The translations under genes were made by a program, and so were the position numbers. DNA of 56,353 bases from a virus: positions 1-56,353 of IMG/VR virus record IMGVR_UViG_3300046804_004565; one strand, 5' to 3'. Position 1 is the first letter of the stretch, and each line of letters begins with the position of its first letter. The notes under the pieces were generated by a model. That model made no database searches, was not told the origin of the DNA, and saw only the letters and a program-made list of their open reading frames with translations. Shown here in pieces: positions 14,888 to 55,191 of this stretch.

Positions 14888-14908
14888 AGGTTGTATAATG
14901 ATTATATT

Positions 14909-14917
14909 ATAAATATA
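14909..14917 (-). promoter_or_regulatory. Class II box TATATTTAT before the RCC1 gene
   Basis: On the coding strand the sequence is GGTTATATTTATAATATAA, 21 nt before the ATG at 14887. It could drive the RCC1 protein and the two genes beyond it. Confidence 0.5.
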
Positions 14918-14933
14918 ACCTATTAGATTAAAA

Positions 14934-16617: not shown

Positions 16618-16653
16618 AGTTAATAAATTCTGCTGTTCATGTTTATATATTTC

Positions 16654-19602: not shown

Positions 19603-19627
19603 TTTATTAATTAAGTATATGTCATGA

Positions 19628-20416: not shown

Positions 20417-20427
20417 CTGCTGTTATG

Positions 20428-28308: not shown

Positions 28309-28336
28309 TTGACAGTTTTTTGGGTGTGCTTAGAAT
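28309..28336 (+). promoter_or_regulatory. Sigma70-like promoter TTGACA-16-TAGAAT
   Basis: The plus-strand -35 TTGACA at 28309-28314 and -10 TAGAAT at 28331-28336 are spaced by 16. Expected +1 near 28343, seven bases before the chosen ATG at 28350. Confidence 0.6.
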
Positions 28337-28349
28337 GTATCACCTAATT

Positions 28350-30513: not shown

Positions 30514-31125
30514 TTATGGTGTATAACCAAACCGGTCAAACACATACTTCTCAGTGTTGTATATTATTTTCTTTGATTTGTCTGAAATTTGTCTGTTGTA
30601 TTCTTGTCTATTTTTTCCCTTAAATAGATTTGGTTCTCTGTGTATATTTTTCACATAAAACCAATAGTTCAAAGGATCTACTTCTTCTCCCGCGTTTTTT
30701 AACGCTTTTTCCAAATCTACAAACAAATTCTCAACTTTTCCTATAAAGTGCATCTTGATATCGGTAGGATATGCAGGATCTTCTCCGATGTATCTTGCCA
30801 AATAATTGGAATAGTGTCCCATCCAGAATGGGCCATACTCTTGTATCCAAGTATCAAAATCGGGACACTCTTTTTCTTTGGCACTGAATCTGTCTCGTTT
30901 GCTCCAATACCAAAAAGACGGCCACCAGGTATATGGGTGACGCACAAAGCAGAAGTTGTATGTATTTTTGCTTTCAGTCATCTGATGCAAAAACATATGT
31001 CCATTCTGGGGATATCGGTATCTTTTACTGACAAGATCAAACTGATACAAAAATGCTTGGATTTGAGATCCTCCACATTTTGGGATATGAATAAAACTAG
31101 ATTTTCTAAGAAGTAAATTGCTCAT
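30514..31125 (-). CDS. Sulfotransferase-like protein A
   Basis: A 203-aa protein. The N-terminal FIHIPKCGGSQIQAFLY matches the 5'-phosphosulfate loop of PAPS-dependent sulfotransferases, and CFVRHPYTWWPSFWYW the 3'-phosphate motif (FxRxPxxR/W). It probably transfers sulfate from PAPS to a carbohydrate hydroxyl. It is homologous throughout to the protein at 32242-32874 (MSNL.L.KS.FIHIPKC, ...FGPFWMGHY..., IGKVENL). It lies at the end of the glycan island. Donor and acceptor are inferred. Confidence 0.82.
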   Translation of the reverse strand: MSNLLLRKSSFIHIPKCGGSQIQAFLYQFDLVSKRYRYPQNGHMFLHQMTESKNTYNFCFVRHPYTWWPSFWYWSKRDRFSAKEKECPDFDTWIQEYGPFWMGHYSNYLARYIGEDPAYPTDIKMHFIGKVENLFVDLEKALKNAGEEVDPLNYWFYVKNIHREPNLFKGKNRQEYNRQISDKSKKIIYNTEKYVFDRFGYTP

Positions 31126-31126
31126 A

Positions 31127-31435
31127 TTAATGAATGCTTACCACTACATCGGTGTGCGTCAAACCATAATCTCCCTTCCAGCCCTGTTCATTTTTTCCAA
31201 ATACGATATGTTCTTCTCCCTCTAACGCATTGTATATGACCATTTCTGGAAATGAAGAGTCGATCTCTTTCTTGTATTGAAAATGCGAGCGAATTTGGTC
31301 TGATTGCAAAAATTGATCAAATATATTTGTTATTTGATCCAATGGGGTGCTGCGAACAATCACAACTCCTCTTCCACTTCCACCAAGTTGTCTGACGTGG
31401 GTGATTATAAATATAAAAAGATTTTGGTAATTCAC
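31127..31435 (-). CDS. Hypothetical protein between radical SAM and sulfotransferase genes
   Basis: The 102-codon frame starts with GTG overlapping the radical SAM stop by four bases. An internal GTG at 31363, after the strong site AGAGGAG, is an alternative that would give 78 aa (beginning IVRSTPLDQITNIFDQF). The region between also contains TATATTTAT, which is either coding (FIFI) or a class II box for the downstream sulfotransferase gene. The C-terminus is NEQGWKGDYGLTHTDVVVSI. No family recognised. Confidence 0.5.
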   Translation of the reverse strand: MNYQNLFIFIITHVRQLGGSGRGVVIVRSTPLDQITNIFDQFLQSDQIRSHFQYKKEIDSSFPEMVIYNALEGEEHIVFGKNEQGWKGDYGLTHTDVVVSIH

Positions 31436-32235
31436 GTTGTTTTTACTTTCTGATTACTTTTATGTTTTTCCATTGATTCGGAATCATTTACGTAGAAAGT
31501 CAAACTATTTCTGTATTTTTGGAACAATTCTTCCATTGAAGCATCAAATTCGGAGTTAGTCAATAATAAAGATTTCATTTTTTCATGGTCTTTTATTACT
31601 TTCGATTTTTCGACATAAAACATTTGTCTGAATTCAATTGTGCTTATTTGGTTGTCGATTGCGTATTTACACAAATCATCCAATTTTTTTATATTTCTTG
31701 TATTGACTGTAGTTATGAATTCCACTCTGGCTTCTGGCCAGTCTCTTTTTAAGTTTTTTATGTTTGTCAATATTTTGTTCAAGTCCGATCCCCCTCTTAT
31801 TTCTTTGTGAATTTCGGGATCTACGGTATCTATCGATACAGTTATTTTATTAATTCCAGCGTTTCTTAGGTCATCCAAGTTATGTATGTGAAGTAAAGTC
31901 CCATTTGTCTGTAATCTGAATGATTGTATCGGCTTTGCCTTAGAATTAGAAACCATTAGTGCAAACTTTGTCATTCGTTTGTCCATAGTGGGTTCCATCG
32001 CACACCCAAGTTGAAAATCATTGACAGAATTCACTTGAGTTTCTATAAATCTTAAAAAATCTTCCTCGCTAACCAACTTGTTATCTCTGTGATTGTGACA
32101 ATAGACACAATGCAAATTACAACTCAGGTTGCTGTCAAACAATATGGTATTGAAATCGTGTGGGGATGGAAATTTTATATCATTTATATTTTTGTGGGAT
32201 ATTCTGTAAAAATGTGGCTCTAAATCTGCTCTCAT
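31432..32235 (-). CDS. Radical SAM protein
   Basis: A 267-aa enzyme with the cluster motif CNLHCVYC (Cys39, Cys43, Cys46), then GCAMEPTM in place of the usual GGEP, and a TIM-barrel-like core (RLQTNGTLLH; ITVSIDTVDPEIHKEIRGGS). It uses SAM and a [4Fe-4S] cluster to start radical chemistry. The C-terminus lacks the extra cysteines of SPASM domains, so an auxiliary cluster is unlikely. The location between two sulfotransferase-like genes suggests glycan or peptide modification; substrate unknown. Confidence 0.88.
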   Translation of the reverse strand: MRADLEPHFYRISHKNINDIKFPSPHDFNTILFDSNLSCNLHCVYCHNHRDNKLVSEEDFLRFIETQVNSVNDFQLGCAMEPTMDKRMTKFALMVSNSKAKPIQSFRLQTNGTLLHIHNLDDLRNAGINKITVSIDTVDPEIHKEIRGGSDLNKILTNIKNLKRDWPEARVEFITTVNTRNIKKLDDLCKYAIDNQISTIEFRQMFYVEKSKVIKDHEKMKSLLLTNSEFDASMEELFQKYRNSLTFYVNDSESMEKHKSNQKVKTT

Positions 32236-32241
32236 TTTAAA

Positions 32242-32874
32242 TTATTGGTTATAATTAAACCTCTCAAATACGTATCTTTCGGTTTTATATATTATTTCCT
32301 TCGATTGATCCGATATTCCTTTGTCGTATGTTTGTTCATTTCTCCATTTTATCATGTTTGGATCATTGGGTGCATTTTTTACTACTTCGTCAAAATATTC
32401 TTCGGAAAAATACTTTTCTCCTATGTTAACTTCTCCAGCCTGCAATAGCGCCGTCTTTACATCCGGAACAAGATTCTCGACTTTTCCTACAAAATCTATC
32501 TTTTTCTTTACAAGATATGTGGGGTCGTCTCCCGTATATCGTTTTACCAGTCGTGTATAATGTCCCATCCAAAAAGGTCCAAAATCTTTAACCCACACAT
32601 CAAAATTTTCACATTCTCTTTCTTGTAAAGAAAACCTGTCTTTTTTGCACCAAGTATAAAACGAAGGCCACCAGGTGTATGGATGTCTCACGAACGTAAA
32701 GTTATAATATTTGTTATAATCTGGCATTTGATGTAAAAACAAATGGCCATCGTGGGGGTGGTCATACCGCTTTTTTACATTCATAGCTATCTTGTATATC
32801 AACGATTGTACATATGTACCAGCGCATTTTGGAATGTGTATGAAGTTCGACTTTTCCAGTTGTAAGTTGCTCAT
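32242..32874 (-). CDS. Sulfotransferase-like protein B
   Basis: A 210-aa paralogue of the protein at 30514-31125. It has FIHIPKCAGTYVQSLIY (5'-phosphosulfate loop) and FTFVRHPYTWWPSFYTW (3'-phosphate motif). The shared order of motifs and the similar C-terminal YKTERYVFERFNYNQ point to a duplication, later divided by the radical SAM and small genes. It is translated from an ATGA overlap with the next glycosyltransferase gene. Confidence 0.82.
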   Translation of the reverse strand: MSNLQLEKSNFIHIPKCAGTYVQSLIYKIAMNVKKRYDHPHDGHLFLHQMPDYNKYYNFTFVRHPYTWWPSFYTWCKKDRFSLQERECENFDVWVKDFGPFWMGHYTRLVKRYTGDDPTYLVKKKIDFVGKVENLVPDVKTALLQAGEVNIGEKYFSEEYFDEVVKNAPNDPNMIKWRNEQTYDKGISDQSKEIIYKTERYVFERFNYNQ

Positions 32875-34055
32875 AGTTTTATCAAAATTGGAGTCAATTC
32901 AATCAGCTTTCCAAAAGTTTTCAATCTAAAAATACCAAGCATCATTTCGGAGTCCGGTTCATATCCGTCGTATATTATATTTCCCAGATTCTGGATGATA
33001 CCCATATTCTCCATAGGATTATTGGCTACAAAGTCCTTTTGAGAGAAATACAATAGCATATTGTTTTTATTTTGTTCGATATATCCGTGGTTGAATATTC
33101 TTGTGCGTAGGTCCGTGCTTGTATTTGGCTGTTCTTTGGCTATATATCTTTCAGCCAATACCCAGTTATCGATATAAACGTGAGTAGCGAACGGTTCTAC
33201 GTGATATAGGAAGTTTTCATCTATAACATCAGTCATCACAAATCCTATGTTGAGCTTCTTTGGCATAATAGGATGCTGATACTGGTCGTTTTGTATCCAG
33301 CTTTGCCATTTTCTCATATAATATCTTGCGGATCTGTTTCGCATAGCGTGGAACTTTGGATCTTGTGTCTGATTTTCCACGCCATCTTGAAACTGCCCAC
33401 CTCTGCAAGTAAAATGATATACAAGCGCATCCCAAGATTGCATCATTTCACACCCATTTAGAATCATACGCTGGAAAATATCAGAGTCTTCATAGTATGA
33501 ATGCAGAACCTCGTCGTGCATTCCGATATCTGTCAGATTATTTTTGTATGTCATCCACGGAGCGAATATGCCTCTGGATGTAATGTCCTTGTTATCGACG
33601 ATATACTTGGCTACATAACTATCAAACTCAGCTTTCTTGAAGTCTTCTGGATACATCCCAAAGTTTTCCACAATCTTTTCCTTTCCAGCAGGATGCAGAG
33701 GGGGCTCTATTCTTGTTGCAGATACAACGGTGTTTGGTTTGAGATATTTGACAAGATTAACATCGAACCCTTTACCCATATACATATCCGCGTGGAATAC
33801 ACAGATCACGTCGCCTGTAGATTGCTCTATGCAACGGTTATATCCATACGCAATGCCCTTGTATTCAGATGAATCGTTCTTGGTATACTTAACTTCGGGG
33901 GCATTTGCTTTTAGCCATTCTTCTGTGCCATCATTATCGGCGTCGATATACACAACTATCTCGTATGGAAGCTGCGAGTTTTCCTTGATGGATGTTATGG
34001 AACCCTTCAAATAGCGAAGGTTGTTTTTTGTTGGGAGGCAGTATGAAATTTTCAT
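32871..34055 (-). CDS. GT2-like glycosyltransferase, 394 aa
   Basis: The N-terminus MKISYCLPTKNNLRYLKGSI is the standard GT-A opening, followed by VYIDADNDGTEEWL (nucleotide-binding Asp pair) and CVFHADMYMGKGFD (metal-binding HAD). The C-terminal 170 residues (KLNIGFVMTDVIDENFLYHV) form an extra domain. It transfers a sugar from a nucleotide sugar to an unknown acceptor. It starts four bases inside the 60-aa gene stop. Confidence 0.82.
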   Translation of the reverse strand: MKISYCLPTKNNLRYLKGSITSIKENSQLPYEIVVYIDADNDGTEEWLKANAPEVKYTKNDSSEYKGIAYGYNRCIEQSTGDVICVFHADMYMGKGFDVNLVKYLKPNTVVSATRIEPPLHPAGKEKIVENFGMYPEDFKKAEFDSYVAKYIVDNKDITSRGIFAPWMTYKNNLTDIGMHDEVLHSYYEDSDIFQRMILNGCEMMQSWDALVYHFTCRGGQFQDGVENQTQDPKFHAMRNRSARYYMRKWQSWIQNDQYQHPIMPKKLNIGFVMTDVIDENFLYHVEPFATHVYIDNWVLAERYIAKEQPNTSTDLRTRIFNHGYIEQNKNNMLLYFSQKDFVANNPMENMGIIQNLGNIIYDGYEPDSEMMLGIFRLKTFGKLIELTPILIKL

Positions 34056-34234
34056 AGTTTTGAGTGTTCTATTCCGACGATTTCTACCATTTGCTTTTCT
34101 TTTTCCGTCATATTATTATAAAGTTCGTACATTTCTTCTTTGATTTCATTCAGTTTAGCCCTCGGAGAATCATTGTCAATGCAACGTTGTATCTTATAAT
34201 ACAACTCTATATATTTTCTAGCAGCCTCGGTCAT
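34052..34234 (-). CDS. Small helical protein, 60 aa
   Basis: Start at the ATG at 34234 (MTEAARKYIELYYKIQRCID); a longer reading would run deep into the upstream glycosyltransferase gene. Helical, with EEMYELYNNMTEKEKQMVEI; similar short helical proteins occur in many phages. It overlaps the glycosyltransferases at both ends. Confidence 0.6.
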   Translation of the reverse strand: MTEAARKYIELYYKIQRCIDNDSPRAKLNEIKEEMYELYNNMTEKEKQMVEIVGIEHSKL

Positions 34235-35099
34235 ATAGTTCGGGATTGTTGTTATAACGTTGTCGCATTTGCTCCGTGAGTTTGACGAAGCCATATTCGT
34301 CATATGATGGTGCTTCTCCCCACAGTTCAAGCCAAGTTCTAAAGTTCTTTTGCTCGCTGATTTTTTGTCTGTCGGACGTTCCTGTCAGTTTGTCGTGCTG
34401 TCCGAGAAAATGACTACTACGTGCTCCAAAATGCCATACCATTGCTCTCGGAGTAACCACAAATTCGTATCCTTTTATCTGCATCATCACGCTCTGCATA
34501 TGATCTTCAAACGAACTTGGTGCAAACCTTGCGTCGTTGTTGATGAAATACTTGGTGCGCATCATATACGACACGCCTTCTACTTTTCTAAAGTTTGGAT
34601 GTTCATTCTTAACAAACCGGTCTGCCCAACTTAGGAATCCTTGACCATCAAAATCGTGATGATATACACCAAACCCACCATCAACCGGAGCAAATACCGT
34701 TCCCACTCTGTCTTGATTGTTGAAGATATTTGGTTCGCATCTCCAAGCACAAGCTACAATAGGTTTTTCAGTATTTGATACAATATCAAGCAAAGGCTTG
34801 TCATAGTGACGGCTGATATACATGTCACTATGCACGAGATTAAAATATTCTGTTTTGACTCTTTTGATTGCTTCATTGACGCCTCCTCCTATGCCTTTTG
34901 GCACAATATTCTCTTCGTAAATACAATGTATATCGGATTGTGAGAGAAGCCAATCACGAGTCTCTGTATCATTCTCTGTATAAACAATGATGGGCTGGTT
35001 CTTGTAATATGCGTTCTCACGAATGGACTCGACAACCAGCTTCAAGTATGGAAGCGATTTATAACTGTTGATTATCCAAGTGTAGATAGGTTCTCTCAT
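34218..35099 (-). CDS. GT2-like glycosyltransferase, 293 aa
   Basis: GT-A opening IYTWIINSYKSLPYLKLVVE, then IVYTENDTETRDWL and VHSDMYISRHYD (metal site). The C-terminal half contains DDARF-type NNDARFAPSSFEDHMQSVMM, where FEDH resembles the catalytic ED(x)H of GT2 enzymes. Starts behind a clear AGGAGG. Donor and acceptor unknown. Confidence 0.8.
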   Translation of the reverse strand: MREPIYTWIINSYKSLPYLKLVVESIRENAYYKNQPIIVYTENDTETRDWLLSQSDIHCIYEENIVPKGIGGGVNEAIKRVKTEYFNLVHSDMYISRHYDKPLLDIVSNTEKPIVACAWRCEPNIFNNQDRVGTVFAPVDGGFGVYHHDFDGQGFLSWADRFVKNEHPNFRKVEGVSYMMRTKYFINNDARFAPSSFEDHMQSVMMQIKGYEFVVTPRAMVWHFGARSSHFLGQHDKLTGTSDRQKISEQKNFRTWLELWGEAPSYDEYGFVKLTEQMRQRYNNNPELYDRGC

Positions 35100-35121
35100 G
35101 ACTTCCTCCTATTGTAATTAG

Positions 35122-35433
35122 TCAAATCAAGAAATCAAGTTGAGCCTGTGTGTATCTTTTAATGACATTATCAAAGAATAGTTGAGCACTATATTCAACA
35201 TCACCTTCAAATTTCATTGGACCATCTTTCCAAGACAATGTACCAATAGGCTTACCATCTTTATGAAATTGTACAGTATATGCCGGTGGAACATACAAAC
35301 TGCTATTTACCAAAAAACTACTTGTATTTGTCGTATACGCATTATAAGAAAATTTGTAATTTGTATCTAAATTGGATGTAAGCGAATCTGGCTTCATAAA
35401 ATCAAATTCTAATTGTGTTTCAGTTGTATTCAT
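35122..35433 (-). CDS. Hypothetical phage protein, 103 aa
   Basis: The C-terminal half YTVQFHKDGKPIGTLSWKDG followed by PMKFEGDVEYSAQLFF is a pattern I know from many phage proteins (GKxVGxLxWxDGxxKFEGDxxxSA) of unknown function. The N-terminal 45 residues are Ser/Thr/Asn-rich. It sits between two glycosyltransferase genes and overlaps one by 14 bases; probably not part of the glycan pathway. Confidence 0.7.
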   Translation of the reverse strand: MNTTETQLEFDFMKPDSLTSNLDTNYKFSYNAYTTNTSSFLVNSSLYVPPAYTVQFHKDGKPIGTLSWKDGPMKFEGDVEYSAQLFFDNVIKRYTQAQLDFLI

Positions 35434-36196
35434 ATTTTTCCGCTTCCGCTCTCAGGTTGATATAGTCATTATACAATCCGGACTTTATAAAGAACTTCTG
35501 CATTCCTGCTTCAGCAAGTCGGCAGTATGTGGGAATGTCAATGCCAGCCACGCCTCGCTTAACCGTAAGAGAGTTGTGATGCAAAATACAAGCTCTATCA
35601 ACAACGCCGATCTTATAGCCAAGTTTCTTAGCAGTCAAAGCAAATAGCCAGTCTGGTCCCCAACCATACATAAGATCGGTGTCTATGTTTCCTACTGCTT
35701 CAATCAGTCTGCGAGAAATAAGAGGACATTGGAAATCTGAATATACCACCTGTCGTATTTCCTTGGAGCATCTACTATGCATTCCTTTCCAATGACACTG
35801 CTGGTTTGGTTCTATGTTATAGAACGATGGGGCAACGATGTCGTATTTGATTTCTTGGCTACCCCACGTACCAGCAAACACTTCTTCAAACATTTCTTCA
35901 CGCAACGTGCGTATGAACTCGTATGGATGAATAGTAAGGTCATTACTAAGGAACATCATAGAGTCATACTCGGCGTTTTCTTTTACATACTCCATCGACG
36001 CATTCAAACCTCCACCGAAATACACATTGGTTTCCAGTTGGAATGATGTATATTTGCTTCTTCCTTCGGGCTTGGATGCGTTGTCGATGACAAACAGGTC
36101 ATAGTCCTGCCTCTCATATGGCTTAAGAGACTCATACAGCATATCTGTATAGTCTGGCAGATTATGATTTAGAATGAATGCGGCTGTTTTACCCAT
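35420..36196 (-). CDS. GT2-like glycosyltransferase, 258 aa
   Basis: GT-A signs: AAFILNHNLPDYTDMLYESL, DLFVIDNASK, NVYFGGGLNASMEYV, and FLSNDLTIHP where the metal-binding DxD would be. WGPDWLFALTAKKLG fits the catalytic region (usually D/E-D). Length is that of a single catalytic domain. Donor and acceptor unknown. Confidence 0.8.
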   Translation of the reverse strand: MGKTAAFILNHNLPDYTDMLYESLKPYERQDYDLFVIDNASKPEGRSKYTSFQLETNVYFGGGLNASMEYVKENAEYDSMMFLSNDLTIHPYEFIRTLREEMFEEVFAGTWGSQEIKYDIVAPSFYNIEPNQQCHWKGMHSRCSKEIRQVVYSDFQCPLISRRLIEAVGNIDTDLMYGWGPDWLFALTAKKLGYKIGVVDRACILHHNSLTVKRGVAGIDIPTYCRLAEAGMQKFFIKSGLYNDYINLRAEAEKYEYN

Positions 36197-36197
36197 A

Positions 36198-36611
36198 TTA
36201 TGATCCGTTGAATACTTTCATCTTGATGCTTCTACCAGTCATTTCTGCCGGTTGAATGAAAAACTTCTTTTCTGGCTGCGTGATCTCGAAGAACTGCTCC
36301 AGTTCTTCCTCGTTGTCCGCAAACATCATAAAATCTTCTTCTGTTCCAACTTCCCTGCACTTGAACAGATTATATTGCGTGGTAACAACAGTGGTATATC
36401 CTTCGTGGTGCTTGAATACTTCGGATATGAAATAAAACTCCAATACAATAATAGCAAATGTATTTACGGTATGTGTGATATTATCAAACAACTGGTTATT
36501 CATCACCAGCCCCTTTAGGTTTGCTATCGCCGCCATCATAGGAAATAAGTTCAGTATGGCGAGACCAAACACCAGATAATAATACAAGCTTTTCTTTGGA
36601 CCAGTTGTCAT
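36198..36611 (-). CDS. Two-pass membrane protein, 137 aa
   Basis: Two membrane helices are visible (LYYYLVFGLAILNLFPMMAA; TVNTFAIIVLEFYFISEVF), followed by a cytoplasmic acidic domain (TEEDFMMFADNEEELEQFFE). A class I promoter (TTGACA-16-TACTAT) lies in front, breaking the glycan operon here. No family recognised. Confidence 0.65.
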   Translation of the reverse strand: MTTGPKKSLYYYLVFGLAILNLFPMMAAIANLKGLVMNNQLFDNITHTVNTFAIIVLEFYFISEVFKHHEGYTTVVTTQYNLFKCREVGTEEDFMMFADNEEELEQFFEITQPEKKFFIQPAEMTGRSIKMKVFNGS

Positions 36612-36624
36612 AATAATCTATGCA

Positions 36625-36652
36625 ATAGTAGCATATATAACAGAGTTGTCAA
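36625..36652 (-). promoter_or_regulatory. Class I promoter TTGACA-16-TACTAT
   Basis: The -35 box touches the stop of the upstream glycosyltransferase gene. First T to ATG at 36611: 41 nt. Confidence 0.55.
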
Positions 36653-37528
36653 TCAGCAAGATTTTATTATATCAACAATCTGTTTGGCTCGGGTTTCTGC
36701 TCTATGATGTTCTTGCACCTTTTTATATATGTTTTCCGCCAAAGCGTTTCTTATATAATCGTTGTTCAGCAGATATTCTATCTTTTCCGCCGCCTCTTTG
36801 GGATTGGAATAATACATTATGTCTCTGCCGTCTATGAATAGGTCATATATGCCGGTAGATGTAGATATACGGTTTGTTACAACGGCGAGCTTACATCCAC
36901 CCGCTTCGAATATACGGCGTGTTATTTCATCGTTATTGGCATATTGATACGCGACCGTGCCGCTGTTATAAAAATCATTGTTCTCCTGCGGCGGTATTCT
37001 TTTATTGATGAACTTATCTCCCAATGCACTTTGAACATATTCAACACCAGGTCTTTTACCACAAGTTGTGATGCAGACATTGCTGCGTCGTATATTCTCA
37101 TTATAATAAAATAAGAATTCATCTCCCCAATGATTCAGCCAATGAACGTTATATCCCATCTCTTTGTATTTCTTCTGACATCTCAGGTCTGGAGTAAATG
37201 CAGCGTTGACATATTTGATTCGTTCCATCGCCTGACCAAATGTCTGCGGCTCGTCTCCAAGTTCAAGTATAACTTTAGCGTGGCTTATTTCTCTCAATCT
37301 TTTGATTTGTGCATCAAGTGATGGCGAAGTCCAAGGCCAAGAAACAAAAACCGCCTCATATTCATTTGCCTTGACAAAGAAATGCTCCAAGTTGCAGTTT
37401 CCTGCATCAAAGTAATATGCATACACATAATGACCGAGCCTTTTGAACGCATAACTCAGTCCAAGCGGACAACTCCAAAATGTTTCTGGTTTACTGGCAT
37501 TGTCGTGCCATAGCATTGCAATCTTCAT
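36653..37528 (-). CDS. GT-B-like glycosyltransferase, 291 aa
   Basis: The N-terminus MKIAMLWHDNASKPETFWSC and a Rossmann-like C-terminal half with TRRIFEAGGCKLAVVTNRIS, then LFIDGRDIMYYSNPKEAAEK match the CgeB/DUF3880-type GT-B fold, where the F/YE(A)xxxG region binds the nucleotide sugar. It overlaps the epimerase stop by four bases. Donor unknown. Confidence 0.75.
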   Translation of the reverse strand: MKIAMLWHDNASKPETFWSCPLGLSYAFKRLGHYVYAYYFDAGNCNLEHFFVKANEYEAVFVSWPWTSPSLDAQIKRLREISHAKVILELGDEPQTFGQAMERIKYVNAAFTPDLRCQKKYKEMGYNVHWLNHWGDEFLFYYNENIRRSNVCITTCGKRPGVEYVQSALGDKFINKRIPPQENNDFYNSGTVAYQYANNDEITRRIFEAGGCKLAVVTNRISTSTGIYDLFIDGRDIMYYSNPKEAAEKIEYLLNNDYIRNALAENIYKKVQEHHRAETRAKQIVDIIKSC

Positions 37529-38346
37529 AGTTTTTCCAGTATTTTATCCACCGCCTGATATGTGGTATATTTCTGCTTGAATCCGAGATAACGCAACTTC
37601 TCGCAGTCCATAAAGAAGTTTGGCGACTGGACTATTTGATGGAACTCAGGAGCGTCAACGTATGTTATCAAACTGGTCGAGTTTGTCTTTTTGACCACAT
37701 AATCCACAATATCGTTGATGCGGGTGCTTTCTTCGCCTCCGACATTGTATATTTCGTTCAACTTTCCCTTTGTCGTAATCAGATTGATGGCATCCGACAC
37801 ATCCTCCACGTGAAGAAAGTTGCGATAGTTATCGCCGTAATACAAGTTTATCGGTTCGTTCTTGGATATGTTGTTGATAAGATATTCAAGGGCATTCTTT
37901 TTCTTTCCTGCACCAACATCACCGCCGATTACATTGCACAACCTGATTATCCTATAGTTTTTCTTGTATGTTTTGCAATAAGACTCTACCAATGCCTCCG
38001 CCGCTCGCTTTGTGATGGAATAAAAACCTTTTGGATCACAATAATCATTCTCGTTGGCGGGATTATATTTGCCATATTTTCCACCATACACAAACCAAGA
38101 ACTCACAAAGTTGAACGTGCCCTTTACATTCGGCAATACATCCATCAACTTTTTCAGGTTGGTATCTATATCTTTGTGCAGATTATCGTGAACGTGATAG
38201 TTGTGAGTTGTGCTGATAAGATACAGCACATCTCCCATACCATCAACGCTATTGGCTTCTCTGGGAGCAATAACGCAATCAGGATATATTCTGGCAAAGT
38301 TGCTGCCAACAAAGCCAGTTCCACCAAATATGGTTAGTTTTGCCAT
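37525..38346 (-). CDS. NAD-dependent sugar-nucleotide epimerase/reductase
   Basis: A 273-aa extended SDR. The cofactor loop is GGTGFVGS (8-15); the catalytic Tyr109 and Lys113 lie in GFYSITKRA; SSWFVYGG holds the Ser/Thr position. These enzymes epimerise, dehydrate or reduce nucleotide sugars. It starts 13 bases inside the stop of the E1-like dehydrase gene, so it may act on its product, for example the final 4-keto reduction in 3,6-dideoxyhexose synthesis. That order is inference. Confidence 0.85.
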   Translation of the reverse strand: MAKLTIFGGTGFVGSNFARIYPDCVIAPREANSVDGMGDVLYLISTTHNYHVHDNLHKDIDTNLKKLMDVLPNVKGTFNFVSSWFVYGGKYGKYNPANENDYCDPKGFYSITKRAAEALVESYCKTYKKNYRIIRLCNVIGGDVGAGKKKNALEYLINNISKNEPINLYYGDNYRNFLHVEDVSDAINLITTKGKLNEIYNVGGEESTRINDIVDYVVKKTNSTSLITYVDAPEFHQIVQSPNFFMDCEKLRYLGFKQKYTTYQAVDKILEKL

Positions 38347-39644: not shown

Positions 39645-39645
39645 A

Positions 39646-40374
39646 TTAGTTGAAATTGCAGGTTTTGTTGAAAAGTTCTTCCCAGTTTATCACAGGGCTC
39701 ATATATTTTGGCTCGCAATGTGTAGAATAACCGGGTAATGGGTTGATGAGGCTACGCCCTTCACTTGTAAGACGAGCAAACTTATCAAAGTCTCTCGTAA
39801 GACCACCAACAACATCGCAGTATTGCACGTGAATGTTGTAATCACGCTTGAATGTCTTGCCGAGGCACGCATATGTGTTGGTCGTGTTTGGAATGGTTTT
39901 CCAATGAACACTTGGCGTGACTCCGACCTTGGACAATAGCTCCTCATACATTGGGTAGAAATATTTATCGTTATGATCGTATAGCGTTATATAGTCTACG
40001 TCAATAAATTTAAATCCCTCTTTTAAGATTTTTGGCCAATTGTGATTATGAAGATAATCATCCTCTACAAAATATATTATGTCATCGTCGGCAAAATCCG
40101 ATTCTTTTGCGACATTCAATAGATTAAGAAAACTCTTGGCATCGTTTCCTCCCTTACGTTCAAACAGCTTGAACTTGCCGTTGTATTTTGGATTTTCAAG
40201 GAAATGACCACTTCCATTCACCTCGCCGTCAAAGCTGATGTTAAGCTCACAATCCTCGTCCATCGTGTTCAGAAAGCTGTTAAAGCATCCTTCGCGGGTA
40301 AAGAAAGATGGTCTTGCCTTGTTGGCAGAATTGCTTGAAAACTTGCAGTGTCTGGCAAATATCTTGATTTTCAT
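39646..40374 (-). CDS. GT-A-like glycosyltransferase, 242 aa
   Basis: It begins MKIKIFARHCKFSSNSANKA. The metal-binding motif reads YFVEDDYLHNHNWP and a later NTTNTYACLGKTFKRDYN resembles the acceptor-binding loop of related phage glycosyltransferases. Length fits a single GT-A domain. It starts one base after the upstream gene's ATGA overlap region. Confidence 0.7.
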   Translation of the reverse strand: MKIKIFARHCKFSSNSANKARPSFFTREGCFNSFLNTMDEDCELNISFDGEVNGSGHFLENPKYNGKFKLFERKGGNDAKSFLNLLNVAKESDFADDDIIYFVEDDYLHNHNWPKILKEGFKFIDVDYITLYDHNDKYFYPMYEELLSKVGVTPSVHWKTIPNTTNTYACLGKTFKRDYNIHVQYCDVVGGLTRDFDKFARLTSEGRSLINPLPGYSTHCEPKYMSPVINWEELFNKTCNFN

Positions 40375-41132
40375 TCTATATTAATGTTCAGATATGGTTC
40401 AACGGTATTGTATTCGAACCCGAATATCTTGTCTTTTCCTGTGAATGGTCCCGCAAACTCTTCGTTTACGGCAGAAACCCAATCTCTGTCCTTGTTATGG
40501 CTCCAGCAGCTTACCTTCTTGATCATAGCTTCTTTGGATCTTACCCAAGAATAGTGGTGTATGAAAGGCTTGCCGTTGTGCGTAACATTTCTCGCTCTCT
40601 GATTGTATGGCACATAATCAAACACACCAGAACGCTCGTTTTCGTGGAATATGAACTGATCTTGTGTGTATATTCCATTTTCCACCAACGCGATTGAATC
40701 TTGCCAATCCTTGCACTGATACTTGAAATCTCTGAAGTAAAAATAGTTTGCCAGTTTATAGCTTGTCAGCAGTTTGCCTTGTTGCTCTGCCCACCAAGCA
40801 CTGAACTCTTCTGGCACGATTATTTCGTCCGTGTCAAGAAACATAAAATAATCCGTACCTTCTGGGGCAAGCATTATCCCTATTTTTCTTGATGCATTGC
40901 AATGCCATCTGGAACTTGATCCTTTGTAATAATCAAACTGCACAAATTCTGCTTTTGGATTTTCATTAGCGGAGCGCAGCAATAGCGCCTGATCCTGCTC
41001 TGTTCCATCGTGAAAATGGGTACAGAATGGAACAATCACCTTGTGCGACACTTTCAAAGCTGCGTCAACGCAAGGCTTCAAAAACATATAATCGTTGGTG
41101 CAATAATTGATGATTGTGGTAATTTTTTTCAT
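40371..41132 (-). CDS. GT2/GT92-like glycosyltransferase, 253 aa
   Basis: Start at the ATG at 41132 (MKKITTIINYCTNDYMFLKP), four bases overlapping the preceding gene. The motif FMFLDTDEIIVPEEF is the DxD of GT-A enzymes of the GT2/GT92 type. A His-rich C-terminal part (NGKPFIHHYSWVRSKEAMIK) is typical of these. Donor unknown. Confidence 0.8.
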   Translation of the reverse strand: MKKITTIINYCTNDYMFLKPCVDAALKVSHKVIVPFCTHFHDGTEQDQALLLRSANENPKAEFVQFDYYKGSSSRWHCNASRKIGIMLAPEGTDYFMFLDTDEIIVPEEFSAWWAEQQGKLLTSYKLANYFYFRDFKYQCKDWQDSIALVENGIYTQDQFIFHENERSGVFDYVPYNQRARNVTHNGKPFIHHYSWVRSKEAMIKKVSCWSHNKDRDWVSAVNEEFAGPFTGKDKIFGFEYNTVEPYLNINIE

Positions 41133-42073
41133 TTGATGAATACTTCCTCGAATTGTTTCATTACATTTTGTGGAGAAAATCTGACAGAATATCTGTCCCA
41201 ATCGACGTTGTTGATGTAATTCTTGTCTATCTGTAGAAGGTATGCTAGGACATCATCCCCGTTTTTATACAACAAGGCACGATCACCCAGCATATCAATG
41301 TGCGCACGCATATACCATCCATACGGAGCATCATATGTAAATATGGGTTTATTGCGAGAAGAAAATTCTCCAACTGCCAATCCGAATGTTTCTCCATCCG
41401 ATCTACCGTGGAGCATAGCGTCCGAAGTATTAATGAACTTTGTCTTGTAAAGATTGCTGTGATTGAACGGGAGAAATTTGGTACGCGGATGATCCGTGAA
41501 TTTTTCCGTGTTCAAAAATATTGCCCACAGGTCGTTTCTTCTGTTCAAAGCTTCGACCAATGCGTGTTGAACAAATGGAATATCAAACTGCTTGTAGCCT
41601 CCAAGTCTACCGATCACAAATGCATCGGATGGAATATCCAGTTCATTTCGCAAATTATCGTTCGTATTTGGTAAATTTATGATATGAGGAACCCATTTGG
41701 TATGACCGAATCTTTTGGCCAGCCATTCACTAACTCCAGCATACACATTTCCGTGCGGCTCTGTCATGCTGAATATGCAGTGAATTGCGGTCCTACAGTT
41801 TGTTGGAGTTACTCCTTCATTTCTTCCTCCAGCTTTGGCAAAATAGAACACATCTATCTTTTCTTTGTCGATGATGCTCTGTATTTCAGACTCGTTTTCA
41901 TACAATATTGTTTTGAATTCCGAATATCTTTCTGGCGGACACGTGGATTTCAATCTGGAACTCATTACTATTGGTTCTGCGCCAAAAATATCTCTTATAC
42001 CGGCGGAGTAATCGTATGTGACCGTGCCGCACCCTCTGTGGTCAAGCTGTTCAACGTGGACTGCTATTTTCAT
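41129..42073 (-). CDS. GT4-like glycosyltransferase, 314 aa
   Basis: Start at the ATG at 42073 (MKIAVHVEQLDHRGCGTVTY). The C-terminal half has RSDGETFGLAVGEFSSRNKP, matching the E-x7-E motif of GT4 GT-B enzymes. It is translated from an ATGA overlap with the SDR gene and reads into the next gene by the same route. Confidence 0.82.
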   Translation of the reverse strand: MKIAVHVEQLDHRGCGTVTYDYSAGIRDIFGAEPIVMSSRLKSTCPPERYSEFKTILYENESEIQSIIDKEKIDVFYFAKAGGRNEGVTPTNCRTAIHCIFSMTEPHGNVYAGVSEWLAKRFGHTKWVPHIINLPNTNDNLRNELDIPSDAFVIGRLGGYKQFDIPFVQHALVEALNRRNDLWAIFLNTEKFTDHPRTKFLPFNHSNLYKTKFINTSDAMLHGRSDGETFGLAVGEFSSRNKPIFTYDAPYGWYMRAHIDMLGDRALLYKNGDDVLAYLLQIDKNYINNVDWDRYSVRFSPQNVMKQFEEVFIK

Positions 42074-42807
42074 GGCACCATTCTCCGCAAAGTATATATT
42101 TCCGGTGATAAATTCTTGAAATTTTTCCAATCATCCCATTTGGCGCTTATGAACTTTCCAGATATGCCGTCGCTTTCGCTGGAAACCAACCATTCAATCA
42201 AAGACAGTGCTGGTTCCGGATCATCACCACCCATACTCTGTTGAACCGCTTTCTTGTATTCTTGCTCTCCAATAACTTCTGGACCGGCGCTGATTGGTCC
42301 ATTTATGATATTTGTCTTGATTGCACCTGGTGCAACTGCGTTTATATCGATGTTGGCTTCTTCCAATGATATCGTTTCCACCAATCTAACAACCGCAGTC
42401 TTTGCAACCGCATATGCTGAAAAATATGCTCGGCCATTTCCGGCACCTCCTCCAGCTAAACAAACTATCTTTGGTCTTATGGCTCTGTCCATCAATGGCA
42501 TAAATGCGCGTATGACATTATATGTTCCATCGAGGTTGATTCTGATAGTTTCAGACCATTTGTCAGCGTTTGTCTTTGATACCTTTCCAAGTTCTCCCTG
42601 CGTTCCAGCACAAGTAATAATTGCATCAAAATGTATGTCGCAATCAAGAAAATATCTTGCCCATTCCTCCACCTCTTCATAATTTGATACATCACATTTG
42701 AACTGAGAAGATCTAGAAAGTCCATATATGGTGTGGCCCTTCACCGAAAGACGATCCGATACCATTTGTCCTATTCCAGAAGTATTACCTGTTAGCAATA
42801 TGTTCAT
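42070..42807 (-). CDS. Short-chain dehydrogenase/reductase
   Basis: A 245-aa classical SDR: cofactor loop TGNTSGIG (6-13), CAG at 66-68 and YAVAK (Tyr132, Lys136). The catalytic Ser usually found about 12 residues before the Tyr is not obvious (LAGGGAGNG). NAD(P)-dependent oxidation or reduction of a sugar or other alcohol is likely. It overlaps the upstream dehydrogenase-like gene by 23 bases. Confidence 0.85.
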   Translation of the reverse strand: MNILLTGNTSGIGQMVSDRLSVKGHTIYGLSRSSQFKCDVSNYEEVEEWARYFLDCDIHFDAIITCAGTQGELGKVSKTNADKWSETIRINLDGTYNVIRAFMPLMDRAIRPKIVCLAGGGAGNGRAYFSAYAVAKTAVVRLVETISLEEANIDINAVAPGAIKTNIINGPISAGPEVIGEQEYKKAVQQSMGGDDPEPALSLIEWLVSSESDGISGKFISAKWDDWKNFKNLSPEIYTLRRMVP

Positions 42808-43528
42808 CGTTTGACTTTTTTATTGATGGAATAAGTTTTATACCTATGTTCATTTGATTGCTGATATCAATCAGCGTATGAATTTCACGCCCAAGAGTAT
42901 CGTTGGTATATGGTCCGCCTGGTTTCAGATAAGACAATTGACCAATTCGTTTATCAGATTGCAACCCTTCGGATACTGCCTTTGAATCTGCTCCAACCAC
43001 TTTGCAAACTGCGTCAATTTCATTGATAAACGCAATAGAACAAGCCAGAAATGAATTAAGCGCGTGCTTGACCATCTCAGCGGATTCCAGATTCATCCAT
43101 AGCTTGTTTGCTTTGATGGGTCTGAACAACTCATCTATCTTTTCATAATATTTGGCATCGCCGCCTATTACAATTCTCTCAGGATTCATAAAGTCATTTA
43201 TTCCCTTGCCTCTTCTCAGATTTTCTGGAGAACACATAATGACCAAATTTGGCCAAAGAGATTGCAATTTCGCGCACGTTCCTACAGGAACTTGGGTAGA
43301 AATTAAAACAATCGTATTATCTTTTGCATAACACAGCACTTTTTCCAATCGTTCAAATATCACACTTGAGTCCGGCTTGCCGTCGCTATAAACGGGAGTA
43401 TCATAACACACCCATATGATTTCGCTCTCATTTACTCTTGTATCTTCCACATTTACTTTGTGGAATTGTTCCATACAAGCGGCGGTGATATATGCCAAAT
43501 GTCCGTGTCCTATCACAGATATATTCAT
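42785..43528 (-). CDS. Truncated UDP-glucose/GDP-mannose dehydrogenase homologue
   Basis: A 247-aa protein with family marks: MNISVIGHGHLAY (cofactor loop), STQVPVGT, PENLRRGKGINDFMNPERIV, and NSFLACSIAFINEIDAVCKV...GADSKAV. The family is normally near 400 aa; the C-terminal domain is missing. The catalytic Cys of the usual GxGGSCxPKD is absent (here PGGPYTNDTLGRE), so the two-step oxidation to a uronate is unlikely. It may reduce or oxidise a different substrate, or be regulatory. Confidence 0.8.
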   Translation of the reverse strand: MNISVIGHGHLAYITAACMEQFHKVNVEDTRVNESEIIWVCYDTPVYSDGKPDSSVIFERLEKVLCYAKDNTIVLISTQVPVGTCAKLQSLWPNLVIMCSPENLRRGKGINDFMNPERIVIGGDAKYYEKIDELFRPIKANKLWMNLESAEMVKHALNSFLACSIAFINEIDAVCKVVGADSKAVSEGLQSDKRIGQLSYLKPGGPYTNDTLGREIHTLIDISNQMNIGIKLIPSIKKSNDEHIANR

Positions 43529-43531
43529 AAT

Positions 43532-44215
43532 TTATCCCTGTCCCATATTTGCTTCTCTTGACCAGTTTTGATTATAAAACTTGTTCTGAGAAACCTGTCT
43601 TTGGATTGTTTTATCGTGGATGATTGCCCATTCAACTTCTTTTGGAAGAGTTGCCACCGTCACCGCACCCACAATTGTCTCGTGCAATGGCTTTTGCCAT
43701 TGAATTTTAAGACTGTTCTTGTATATGCGAGACTGATAATCGCCGTGATTCCAGTTTACTATTGGCAAGTCACCGAAATGTTCACGTATAGTTCCCAGAT
43801 GCCATCCCCACATAGCGGCATCTTGTGGGGTGGCTCCTCTTACGATGTTGACTCTGGGAACTCTATATAACTCCACCGTCTGGTTTGATCTGAGCAACTC
43901 TTGCATATTTTGCAACAGTTCAGAAGACAAGTATTCATCCGCATCCAATTGCACGATATAGTCACCAACGCAGCGTTTGCTGCCATAGTTCTTGTGCTCG
44001 GCAAAATTCTTGTTCAATGCGTGTTGAACCACGGTAAATCCATAGCTCCTCGCATTGGCAAGTATTTTCTTTGTCTCCTCGTTGTCCGAGAAGTCATCAA
44101 GGATGACAACTTCATCATTCGGAGAATGTGATTCAATATGATCCTTGAGCTTGGAGATCAGAACTCCAAGCTCATCGGTCTCGTTATGGCAGGTTACAAG
44201 ATAACTGATTTTCAC
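43532..44215 (-). CDS. GT2 glycosyltransferase, 227 aa
   Basis: GT-A opening MKISYLVTCHNETDELGVLI, then VVILDDFSDNEETK and VQLDADEYLSSELL (DxDE). WQKPLHETIVG resembles the LHE of WaaE/KdtX-type GT2 enzymes. It starts with an overlap (ATGA) to the preceding GT4 gene. Confidence 0.85.
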   Translation of the reverse strand: MKISYLVTCHNETDELGVLISKLKDHIESHSPNDEVVILDDFSDNEETKKILANARSYGFTVVQHALNKNFAEHKNYGSKRCVGDYIVQLDADEYLSSELLQNMQELLRSNQTVELYRVPRVNIVRGATPQDAAMWGWHLGTIREHFGDLPIVNWNHGDYQSRIYKNSLKIQWQKPLHETIVGAVTVATLPKEVEWAIIHDKTIQRQVSQNKFYNQNWSREANMGQG

Positions 44216-45510
44216 GAGGAAACTGGTTCAATTTTCTTGAATTTTGGTAATGTGATGGCGACCTTCTTTTCAAACACAGGTAGATGCTTGTCGAGAACTT
44301 CGACCAACTTCTTGGCGGCTTCGTCCAGATTGAACTTCTGCGAATTTTGTGTGCGCAGCTTCTCGGCGTTGGGAACATAGTTGATATAGTTGTTATACAT
44401 ATCTTCCAGCTTCTGAGCAGCGATGCTGTAATTGGCATTGAACCACTGGCCTTCCTTCACCAACCAATCGTTGCAAGCGCTCGGAGGTATATTCACCAAT
44501 GTGCCTGGCAGAAGATTTGATATGTCTTCTGGCAAGAAATCAACGTGACCACTCCATCCTGTTGTAAGCAGAGGCTTGCCGCTCAGAGTTGATTCCAATA
44601 ATGGACGACCAAATCCCTCACCGTGTGTCAAGCTGACATTAACTTTCACCTTTGGATGATTATACAGACGATTCAGTTCTTCCGGAGTCAATTCTCCGTG
44701 GATAACATATACGTTTGGAAGATTGCCGGATATATTGACTCGAATGTCGTGAATCTTTTTCAATATTTCGGCTTTGTCGATTTTTGAGAAGGTGGCGCCG
44801 CTGGTCTTTAAGATCAATGCTGGCGGGTTCTTCTTGTTTTTGAATACTTCACTGAATATCTTCACAAGCATTCCTACATCCTTGCGATCTGCACCCAGTT
44901 CTCCTTGAATCCAGTGACCAACAAACAGATAGCAGAAGTTTTCCGGAATAGCTTCCAATGCCCTGTCAATTTCCGGAGAAGGTTCGGAAGTTTTCCTGTA
45001 TACCGATGTGTCAATTCCCTCGAATATCACTTCAATAGGTTTGTTGACTTGTATCTTTTCAACTGCACCGGTCTTTTCGTCCTTGCGATCATATGCCACC
45101 TTTGCCAATACATCTCTGGAGAAGACGGAGGGAACAATCGTGAGATTCATTCTATTGACACCTTCTACCCATTCTGGCTTTGGAACGGTGCTTTCAATAC
45201 CGGCTGTCACGCCAATATTGAATTTTCCACGGGGCTGGAACTCATTTGGAATGGATACCTGAATAAATAGTTCAGGTTGTGCCGTAAGGTTTGCTGTAAG
45301 AATTCTGCTCTTGATTTCCTTGACCATAGGACGACTTTCGTCATCAAGCATTGTGTTAGGACAAACGCCCCAACGCATAGGAACAATCTTAACGTCAAAC
45401 TTGTCCCACTTGATGATATCTGCCGCGATTGCAAAGCAATGGTCTCCATATCCGCTGCGAGAAGCAATCGGACCTTGGATTACACATACTGGTTTGATTT
45501 CGTTGCTCAT
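44212..45510 (-). CDS. GT4 glycosyltransferase, 432 aa
   Basis: GT-B enzyme. The N-terminal acceptor part begins VCVIQGPIASRSGYGDHCFA; the donor-binding half has LTHGEGFGRPLLESTLSGKP with the E-x7-E motif and a long KLVNVS-like region before it. The Shine-Dalgarno-like AAAGG lies before the ATG. Length is normal for GT4. Confidence 0.87.
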   Translation of the reverse strand: MSNEIKPVCVIQGPIASRSGYGDHCFAIAADIIKWDKFDVKIVPMRWGVCPNTMLDDESRPMVKEIKSRILTANLTAQPELFIQVSIPNEFQPRGKFNIGVTAGIESTVPKPEWVEGVNRMNLTIVPSVFSRDVLAKVAYDRKDEKTGAVEKIQVNKPIEVIFEGIDTSVYRKTSEPSPEIDRALEAIPENFCYLFVGHWIQGELGADRKDVGMLVKIFSEVFKNKKNPPALILKTSGATFSKIDKAEILKKIHDIRVNISGNLPNVYVIHGELTPEELNRLYNHPKVKVNVSLTHGEGFGRPLLESTLSGKPLLTTGWSGHVDFLPEDISNLLPGTLVNIPPSACNDWLVKEGQWFNANYSIAAQKLEDMYNNYINYVPNAEKLRTQNSQKFNLDEAAKKLVEVLDKHLPVFEKKVAITLPKFKKIEPVSS

Positions 45511-45530
45511 TTATATAACCTTTGTTTTTA

Positions 45531-45881
45531 TTATGGGTTTGTGCCAGCAGTGTTTTGATCATCCTGCTCCGCGAACACGGCGAAGATTTGACTGGTGACA
45601 TCACCGATCTCGTCCTTGTATTCCTGACCCTTGGCTTTCTTTTCCTTGGCGATTTCTATGCGCTTCTCTGTGGCTTCATATACTCTGCCCTTGGCAGCAT
45701 CATCGCTGATCGCCTTTTGCTTTTGTTTTTCGTATGTGGCTTCGATTTCGTTCTTGAGTTCCTTGTCCTCGTCGGAATAACTCTTCATCTCTGCCTTCTT
45801 GTCCTTTTCAAGCTCGAATAATCTCTTGGTGAGATCATAGATTTTGTCTTTTGCCTCGTCGGTTGATAATTTTTTAGCCAT
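45531..45881 (-). CDS. Coiled-coil protein, 116 aa
   Basis: Residues 5-100 are charged and helical (KDKIYDLTKRLFELEKDKKA; ELKNEIEATYEKQKQKAISD). It lies between two GT4 genes, five bases after the upstream one. No family recognised; may not be part of the glycan pathway. Confidence 0.6.
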   Translation of the reverse strand: MAKKLSTDEAKDKIYDLTKRLFELEKDKKAEMKSYSDEDKELKNEIEATYEKQKQKAISDDAAKGRVYEATEKRIEIAKEKKAKGQEYKDEIGDVTSQIFAVFAEQDDQNTAGTNP

Positions 45882-45886
45882 AAGTT

Positions 45887-47365
45887 TTATTGATTGAATT
45901 TTGTTAGCACCGCTTCCTTGTCGATTTTTGGCATCGGGAACCCAACTGAATTCGTGAACATAGTATGCCCAACGTATTCATCGTGGCGATGGATATTGAA
46001 ACGCTCTCTGCCTTTCCAATTTGACATCATACCATCCAAACCATCAGCCATCTTTTCGCACATACTCTCGGCGCTCAGTTCTCCTGCGCCAAGCATCCAC
46101 TCTCTTCCCAGCAAGCCATACTCTTCACGCTTTTCCTTGCCGATGAGATACCAATACATGAATGCTTCGGCACAGTCTTCCCAGCGAGCATAATCCGCGA
46201 GGATGTATGGAGTAGGAATGCTGCCTTGCATCATGCGTGCGCCTGGAAATATTGGTGTAACCCACTTTCCGTGCTTCTTGTATCTACCATCCGCATTTGT
46301 TCCCCAACTGTTGTCAAATTCGTATTTGTTTCCATTGTCGTCGGTGAATCCACATTGATCCTGCAATCCACCTGTAACGGTAACCACAATTGGTGTTCCT
46401 GCCATAACGCTCTCGGCGGTTCCAAGACCAAATCCTTCGTTGTCGGAAAGATTTACTGTGATGTCAGCGATGTTATATAGCTGATTCATCTTGTCCGGCA
46501 ATACTTTGTCGGTGCTGAATACAACGTCATAGTTTGGACAATATGCCTGTTTGCAGGCTGGTAGATCCGTGCCGTTCTCGTCCACAGGATTTGTGTGCAA
46601 GAAGAACACGCACTTTTCAGCTTCTTCTTTTGGAAGATTGTCGCAGAATGCTCTGTATGCCAGCAGGATGGTGCTGGTTTGCTTGCGGCGAATGTTGCGA
46701 TTGTTATAAAAAATAACAAACTTATAATCCTTCTTGAAGTATTGCTTGCGAATAAGTGCAAGTTCACTCTTTTCCGGATCTGTTGTGAGAGGACGGAAAG
46801 TCTTGCCATTGATTCCGTGAGGAACATATGTGACTGTGGTTGGCTTGTTCAATGCATTACCGAGTACGCTTTCAACAATGTTCTTGGTCTGCTTGCTGAT
46901 GCAGCCAATCCAATCGCAGCTTTCATAAAATGCACGATTGTACATTGGGTAAGGAAGATCGTCCCAGATACTATAAAAACCGATAGGTAGCTTCTGGCGA
47001 AGCTCTCGCTCGATTTGGTAGAGCCAGCCCCAGAAACGTGGATCAGTAAAATGGAGCAGCGCATCAGGCTTCTCCATCTTGATAACTTCGTTCAGGATAT
47101 TGGCATCGCCATAACCATCCACCGGATAAAGGCGAACATATGAATCCGTTAGACCAGTAGCCTGATTGGTGGCTTGATCAAGATTCATAATCTTGCCCTT
47201 TTCGGGATGGGTGACGCTACCAGCGATCTGAACCCAGTTGTATTTGCCAGCCAGACCCATCACAAACTCTCTTGCCATCGTGGCAATACCAGAATGCATT
47301 CTTAGGTCGTCGCACAGCAGGATAATCTTCTTTCTGTCCTTTTGAGGAATATAACCAGTTGCCAT
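45887..47365 (-). CDS. GT4 glycosyltransferase, 492 aa
   Basis: GT-B enzyme with the acceptor half KKIILLCDDLRMHSGIATMA, a central FYNNRNIRRKQ (phosphate binding) and the donor motif SDNEGFGLGTAESVMAGTPI (E-x7-E). The insertion around residues 345-375 (ADGRYKKHGKWVTPIFPGAR) is unusual. It is the first gene of the glycan island, ending its upstream limit at 47365. Confidence 0.87.
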   Translation of the reverse strand: MATGYIPQKDRKKIILLCDDLRMHSGIATMAREFVMGLAGKYNWVQIAGSVTHPEKGKIMNLDQATNQATGLTDSYVRLYPVDGYGDANILNEVIKMEKPDALLHFTDPRFWGWLYQIERELRQKLPIGFYSIWDDLPYPMYNRAFYESCDWIGCISKQTKNIVESVLGNALNKPTTVTYVPHGINGKTFRPLTTDPEKSELALIRKQYFKKDYKFVIFYNNRNIRRKQTSTILLAYRAFCDNLPKEEAEKCVFFLHTNPVDENGTDLPACKQAYCPNYDVVFSTDKVLPDKMNQLYNIADITVNLSDNEGFGLGTAESVMAGTPIVVTVTGGLQDQCGFTDDNGNKYEFDNSWGTNADGRYKKHGKWVTPIFPGARMMQGSIPTPYILADYARWEDCAEAFMYWYLIGKEKREEYGLLGREWMLGAGELSAESMCEKMADGLDGMMSNWKGRERFNIHRHDEYVGHTMFTNSVGFPMPKIDKEAVLTKFNQ

Positions 47366-55156: not shown

Positions 55157-55163
55157 AAAATAC

Positions 55164-55191
55164 ATTATGCACTATTTTGATAGTTTGTCAA
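55164..55191 (-). promoter_or_regulatory. Class I promoter TTGACA-16-CATAAT
   Basis: The minus strand reads TTGACAAACTATCAAAA. The first T is 35 nt before the ATG at 55156; predicted +1 at or one base before it. Confidence 0.7.

Follow-up and report, generated by a model that had tools for sequence, protein, structure and literature searches.

A fixed glycosyltransferase anchor and a swapped sugar-gene payload beside phage replication genes

Large clusters of lipopolysaccharide (LPS) genes are known from the T4-like cyanophages P-SSM2 (24 LPS genes), S-SSM7 and S-SM2 (PMC3037559, PMC2984593), and the function of such sugar clusters in large T4-like phages, together with the question of whether they are stuffer DNA, had stayed open. 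Virion glycosylation is documented in mycobacteriophages, whose glycosyltransferases (GTs) glycosylate the capsid and tail tube (Freeman 2023, as cited in PMC12619734), and the moraphages, a recent jumbo lineage, are reported to have four core GT orthogroups (PMC12619734). Here we describe a glycan-modification island at positions 30514-47365 of a 56,353-base linear, metagenome-derived IMG/VR virus record, IMGVR_UViG_3300046804_004565 (the whole stretch analysed, hereafter the window). Its genes, designated below by their first position in Table 1, are all on the minus strand and many overlap by a few bases, in agreement with the layout and coordinates of the first-pass annotation once the starts of 41129 and 40371 are corrected to internal ATGs, as in relatives. 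They encode ten GT-type proteins, two sulfotransferases, a radical SAM protein, an RfbH/E1-type 3-dehydrase, a short epimerase/reductase, a short-chain dehydrogenase/reductase (SDR) and a UDP-glucose-dehydrogenase-like (UGD-like) protein.

The cyanophage clusters resemble the island in being large surface-glycan blocks in T4-like genomes of more than 200 kb. However, they adjoin hli03/phoH and tRNAs, whereas the anchor of the island adjoins a PD-(D/E)XK nuclease and the clamp loader and is inherited with core genes. Relatives of the anchor GTs were weak or missing in the Synechococcus phages compared (P-SSM2 itself not among them), some of which have DegT relatives. The moraphages are, like the phage of the window, large, aquatic, T4-related and equipped with core GTs, but the available text of PMC12619734 describes no sugar island in them. 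The mycobacteriophage systems, as cited there, involve far fewer genes and were shown experimentally, whereas virion glycosylation by the island is a proposal. The earlier description of the island as far beyond the phage norm has to be qualified in view of the large clusters of P-SSM2 and S-SSM7 (PMC3037559, PMC2984593) and the reported moraphage core GTs (PMC12619734).

Three observations make it most likely that the window is part of the genome of a T4-like jumbo phage. A 297-kb IMG/VR record (hereafter the 297-kb relative) is collinear with it across both island borders and has a major capsid gene of the T4 gp23 type. The window itself encodes dUTPase, DNA ligase, RNA ligase, clamp loader A and tail-like proteins with RCC1 repeats. 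The GenBank capsids nearest to that of the 297-kb relative come from Microcystis phage Mel-JY01 (59%) and, at 58% each, from Flavobacterium phage immuto and an uncultured phage. The same collinearity shows that the island is genuine phage DNA and led us to reject an assembly chimera or host DNA. The region did not prove to be host chromosome joined by assembly error, nor did most of its ten putative GTs match other families. A near-identity DNA search against GenBank phages gave no match.

A fixed anchor and a swapped payload

A scan of IMG/VR for relatives of the second GT4 (44212) recovered at least 583 viral relatives, and gene layouts were counted in the 80 best-scoring of these contigs, which are not a random sample. 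The order PD-(D/E)XK nuclease, GT4, GT4, GT2 is near-constant in this set: the first GT4 lies directly upstream of the second in 75 contigs, 71 have the nuclease upstream of this GT4 pair, and the anchor GT2 directly follows the second GT4 in 59, with 63 contigs having room for it. The 3-dehydrase was detected in only 19. Pairwise distances for both GT4s track those of the nuclease, and those for 44212 also track the clamp loader (r 0.87-0.93), while both GT4s are less diverged than either; the anchor GT2 tracks less closely (r 0.79 with 44212). Given these distances and this lower divergence, the anchor GT4s behave as core genes, and the two are inherited together with the replication genes. 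Conservation of the anchor GTs across many genomes equals that of replication genes, so the glycan should be important for the phage.

To characterize the payload, 54 proteins encoded downstream of the anchor trio in seven divergent contigs were compared with Pfam. Those with a match are mainly epimerases, 4,6-dehydratases, DegT aminotransferases, GT2, GT10, GT11 and GT25 proteins, UDP-galactopyranose mutase, acetyltransferases and methyltransferases, whereas the matches of proteins encoded upstream are to clamp loader, DNA polymerase B, dUTPase and GroEL. The same locus is present in the cultured Immutovirus (Flavobacterium phage immuto) and in Microcystis phage Mel-JY01, where the nuclease, GT4, GT4 and GT2 are likewise followed by sugar genes; the payload differs there, with aminotransferases, an acetyltransferase and methyltransferases, and the genes are annotated one by one, with no description as a single locus in the open-access literature searched. 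The survey of other phage genomes proposed by the first-pass annotation reveals that the anchor GT4, GT4 and GT2 hold a fixed place beside replication genes while the payload differs between relatives, which suggests that phages of this kind build a variable sugar coat. We found no description of such an arrangement beside the clamp loader in the literature searched. As a separate observation, two relatives have a split version of the first anchor GT4: in contig L014 (954-3481) it is interrupted by a zinc-ribbon, endonuclease-like open reading frame (ORF), and in Mel-JY01 (PP395634 83441-84932) it is annotated as two ORFs.

A closer set consisted of the eight distinct contig lineages with the closest 3-dehydrases. 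Most of the island is kept in the order of the window across them, with framework genes mostly at 60-90% identity, and the two sulfotransferases, the radical SAM gene and the UGD-like/SDR pair are variable; in relatives the variable genes also include a GT11 gene, a HAD/nucleotidyltransferase fusion and FkbM methyltransferases. The radical SAM gene 31432 occurs in the window and is absent from the close relatives, and its GC content of 0.326 (about 33%) compares with 39-46% for most framework genes, making it a probable recent insertion. Nonsynonymous differences amount to 0.07-0.28 per site with synonymous sites near saturation, and purifying selection was detected on all seventeen genes tested, including the odd UGD-like gene. 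Collinearity in related lineages and this selection indicate that the gene set is not a chance assembly. In some relatives a P-loop ATPase-like gene (450-877 residues) is inserted in mid-island (L011 13090-14442, L022 13090-14442 and L014 13365-15998).

Putative sugar chemistry of the payload

The 3-dehydrase 38334 is a divergent RfbH relative that scores 349 bits against the NCBIfam RfbH equivalog, by far its best family, and thus lies below the strict cut-off of 423. Its PAHEIT motif aligns with PAHHIT of Yersinia E1 (3bcx), placing the active-site His where aminotransferases have Lys, the residue seen at the matching position of the listed 3bb8 chain. The four cysteines of the E1 [2Fe-2S] cluster are all aligned, with the last spacing four residues longer. 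Given this His and these cysteines, 38334 likely removes the 3-hydroxyl of a nucleoside-diphosphate (NDP)-4-keto-6-deoxyhexose, and the epimerase/reductase 37525 is its probable partner. In the 297-kb relative, a record that may be incomplete, a cytidylyltransferase and an E3-type reductase (NAD_binding_1) are absent and no 4,6-dehydratase exceeds its family cut-off. A complete phage-encoded CDP-3,6-dideoxyhexose pathway was thus not found; the host must then supply the missing enzymes, and the identity of the sugar is a guess.

The first-pass annotation had also named a UDP-sugar dehydrogenase homologue, 42785, for which the homology stands but the function probably does not. Where UDP-glucose 6-dehydrogenase has the motif GGSCFPKD, all phage copies examined have GGPYTNDTLGRE, which eliminates the catalytic Cys, and all have also lost the C-terminal nucleotide-binding domain, the 247-residue protein of the window ending after the central domain. 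In UDP-glucose dehydrogenase the catalytic Cys serves the second oxidation, from aldehyde to acid, and oxidation of a secondary C6 alcohol on a longer sugar would not need it. Canonical uronic-acid synthesis was rejected on these residues and domains, and we infer that the Cys-less protein would perform a 6-keto step on such a longer sugar. Relatives from bacteria (Lawsonia, Rhizobium jaguaris and a Verrucomicrobia metagenome-assembled genome (MAG)) likewise show Thr at the position of the Cys, and each is followed by an SDR of the same kind, which in Verrucomicrobia and Lawsonia carries the IYTLRR-type C-terminus. The bacterial modules neighbour genes for a transaldolase, a SIS isomerase, a GHMP-type kinase, a HAD phosphatase and a nucleotidyltransferase, none of which was found among the island genes. 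Together with the missing Cys and domain, this octose-type pairing indicates that 42785 probably yields no uronic acid. The gene roles resemble those of the lincosamide octose pathway (LmbR/N/P/K/O/M/L/Z), where the dehydrogenase LmbL acts in GDP-octose conversion for lincomycin (PMC4351081, PMC12945683), but the phage has only the shortened UGD-like/SDR pair, the octose-building genes being absent from the window. The module, for which the open-access literature searched has no description in phages, points to an uncharacterised nucleotide-sugar step common to phages and bacteria. The shared bacterial cluster also has a Gfo/Idh gene in Lawsonia plasmid 3 (L138), Rhizobium jaguaris pRCCGE525c (L139) and the Verrucomicrobia MAG contig (L123), and has the look of a nucleotide-sugar pathway of the octose type in bacteria that are not antibiotic producers.

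The proposed acceptor of the glycan

We estimate a probability of about 0.5 that the island enzymes assemble a glycan in the cytosol on an acceptor encoded by the phage, in the likeliest case a protein of the virion. The anchor GT4, GT4 and GT2 would build a constant core glycan on this acceptor, most likely a capsid or tail protein, and the payload would divert host nucleotide sugars, the RfbH-like enzyme and its reductase leading NDP-4-keto-6-deoxyhexose towards a 3,6-dideoxyhexose and the Cys-less UGD-like/SDR pair possibly giving a higher-carbon sugar. Payload enzymes would then add, extend and sulfate variable outer residues, giving each phage its own sugar pattern. A phage-made acceptor is favoured because phages of Flavobacterium and Microcystis, hosts whose surfaces should differ, have the anchor in common. 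In the 297-kb relative no flippase, O-antigen ligase or polymerase, or PF02397 transferase was found, and hence no lipid-linked Wzx/Wzy pathway; nearly all island proteins are predicted to be soluble. With the constant anchor and the lack of DNA-modifying partners given below, this ranks virion protein, host surface and DNA in that order among the targets originally offered, the preference for virion over host surface being by inference only. Several points weigh against a virion glycan: the phage encodes only part of the nucleotide-sugar pathway, the framework gene 36198 looks membrane-bound, soluble enzymes could act on host lipid-linked sugars, and a variable payload would equally suit exclusion at the host surface.

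Such remodelling of the infected cell's O-antigen, capsule or exopolysaccharide, which might exclude other phages, stop progeny from sticking to debris or deter grazers, is possible, and we rate it clearly below an even chance. Enzymes of these kinds make up bacterial surface-glycan loci, such a role has been proposed for P-SSM2 (PMC2984593) and payload variation would suit varied hosts, but the anchor GTs stay constant over phages of unrelated hosts and the export and polymerization functions would have to come from the host, whose own could serve. Glycosylation of modified bases as a shield against restriction is improbable: although the island adjoins replication genes, has a dNMP-kinase-like gene nearby and recalls viral GTs reported to hypermodify DNA (Pyle 2024, as cited in PMC12619734), the 297-kb relative lacks the thymidylate-synthase/hydroxymethylase family (PF00303) and relatives of the Immutovirus DpdA/Que enzymes, and ten GTs with sulfotransferases exceed what a base needs. 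That the island is captured, functionless host DNA filling the head, an idea raised for the cyanophage LPS clusters (PMC3037559), is hardly credible given the purifying selection, the lower divergence of the GT4 anchor than of the clamp loader and the gene order kept over close lineages. The cultured members, Immutovirus on Flavobacterium LMO8 and Mel-JY01 on Microcystis, make the choice between virion and host directly testable.

An extended form of the virion-glycan proposal, which we consider unlikely in its entirety, is that of a phage 'serotype locus' in a widespread T4-like lineage. The fixed GT trio would prime a virion glycan, to which the payload, recombining in the manner of a bacterial O-antigen locus, would add sulfated, 3,6-dideoxy and higher-carbon (octose- or heptose-like) sugars. 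The UGD-like/SDR pair would oxidise a higher-carbon NDP-sugar at C6 to give a ketone and then reduce or epimerise it. To our knowledge, such C6-keto chemistry has not been reported from a virus. At positions 11570-20856 of the window, several tail-like proteins, one with RCC1 repeats and the others free of Pfam domains, have some 80-100 N-terminal residues in common and all match a single place in the 297-kb relative; possibly they represent an adaptor with exchangeable tips and are candidate glycan acceptors.

Gene assignments and neighbouring genes

The hidden Markov model check suggested by the first-pass annotation recovered GT families and upheld its count of ten GTs: 32871, 34218 and 43532 (GT2), 36653 (Glyco_trans_1_2), and 44212 and 45887 (GT4-like) exceed the Pfam cut-off, and 39646, 40371, 41129 and 35420, recognized by motif, weak match or fold, are probable further GTs. 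The model of 39646 has a GT-A fold (predicted local distance difference test, pLDDT, 86) with Foldseek matches to SpsA, N-acetylglucosaminyltransferase I (GnT-I) and the fucosyltransferase WrtF; that of 40371 is also GT-A, with a weaker match (pLDDT 71), and a divergent paralogue of 41129 in contig L002 weakly matches Glycos_transf_1. PDB profile searches with these four gave no useful match, the predicted folds doing better, and dynein matches of 40371 look like chance. Both sulfotransferases, the radical SAM protein, the epimerase, the SDR and the 3-dehydrase kept their earlier assignments through Pfam matches and, for the last, the aligned E1 residues. A single protein of a relative matches the two sulfotransferases, with identities of 67% and 55%.

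Table 1. Genes of the island and its fixed neighbour, with the evidence for each assignment
Feature	Position	Strand	Evidence
PD-(D/E)XK nuclease, fixed left neighbour, itself no sugar gene	47706..48710	-	Pfam PDDEXK_1
Anchor GT4 no. 1 (GT-B)	45887..47365	-	Glycos_transf_1; relatives in Immutovirus (46%), Mel-JY01, RM378
Small gene between both GT4s	45531..45881	-	no Pfam match; partial relatives in all close lineages
Anchor GT4 no. 2 (GT-B)	44212..45510	-	Glyco_trans_1_2; phrog_2170
Anchor GT2 (GT-A)	43532..44215	-	Glycos_transf_2, 2.7e-18
Short UGD-like protein, catalytic Cys replaced, C-terminal domain missing	42785..43528	-	UDPG_MGDP_dh; module with 42070
SDR, partner of UGD-like protein	42070..42807	-	adh_short; bacterial partner 33%, same C-terminal motif
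GT-B, GT4-type EX7E motif	41129..42073	-	motif kept in relatives; no direct Pfam match
GT-A-fold GT, moderate support	40371..41132	-	predicted fold; relative matches GT2/GT92 weakly
GT-A-fold GT, no family assigned	39646..40374	-	predicted fold; 42% relative in Mel-JY01
RfbH/E1-type NDP-4-keto-6-deoxyhexose 3-dehydrase	38334..39644	-	DegT/RfbH; catalytic His and four Fe-S Cys
Short epimerase/reductase	37525..38346	-	Epimerase; adjoins 3-dehydrase in more distant relatives too
GT-B GT	36653..37528	-	Glyco_trans_1_2, 7.6e-22
Small probable membrane protein, framework gene	36198..36611	-	hydropathy; conserved order
Probable GT-A GT (DUF707-like)	35420..36196	-	just under DUF707 cut-off; 72-90% identity in close relatives
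GT2	34218..35099	-	Glycos_transf_2
GT2	32871..34055	-	Glycos_transf_2, 9.6e-15; 38% relative at far end of Immutovirus island
Sulfotransferase, variable payload	32242..32874	-	Sulfotransfer_2; phrog_3347
Radical SAM protein	31432..32235	-	Radical_SAM, 7.6e-21; CxxxCxxC
Small conserved gene	31127..31435	-	conserved order; function not assigned
Sulfotransferase, paralogue of 32242	30514..31125	-	Sulfotransfer_2

Elsewhere in the window, a UvdE-type UV endonuclease (54206-55165; Pfam 4.4e-41) and a plus-strand dehydrogenase (28320-29414; phrog_9582) are both kept in the 297-kb relative. Positions 55252-55995 encode a secreted protein that has a signal peptide and is probably of the outer-membrane type, which is unusual for a phage; its counterpart in the 297-kb relative is 55% identical. 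Relatives have GMP reductase/IMP dehydrogenase-like genes close to the island, as does Mel-JY01 (GuaB).

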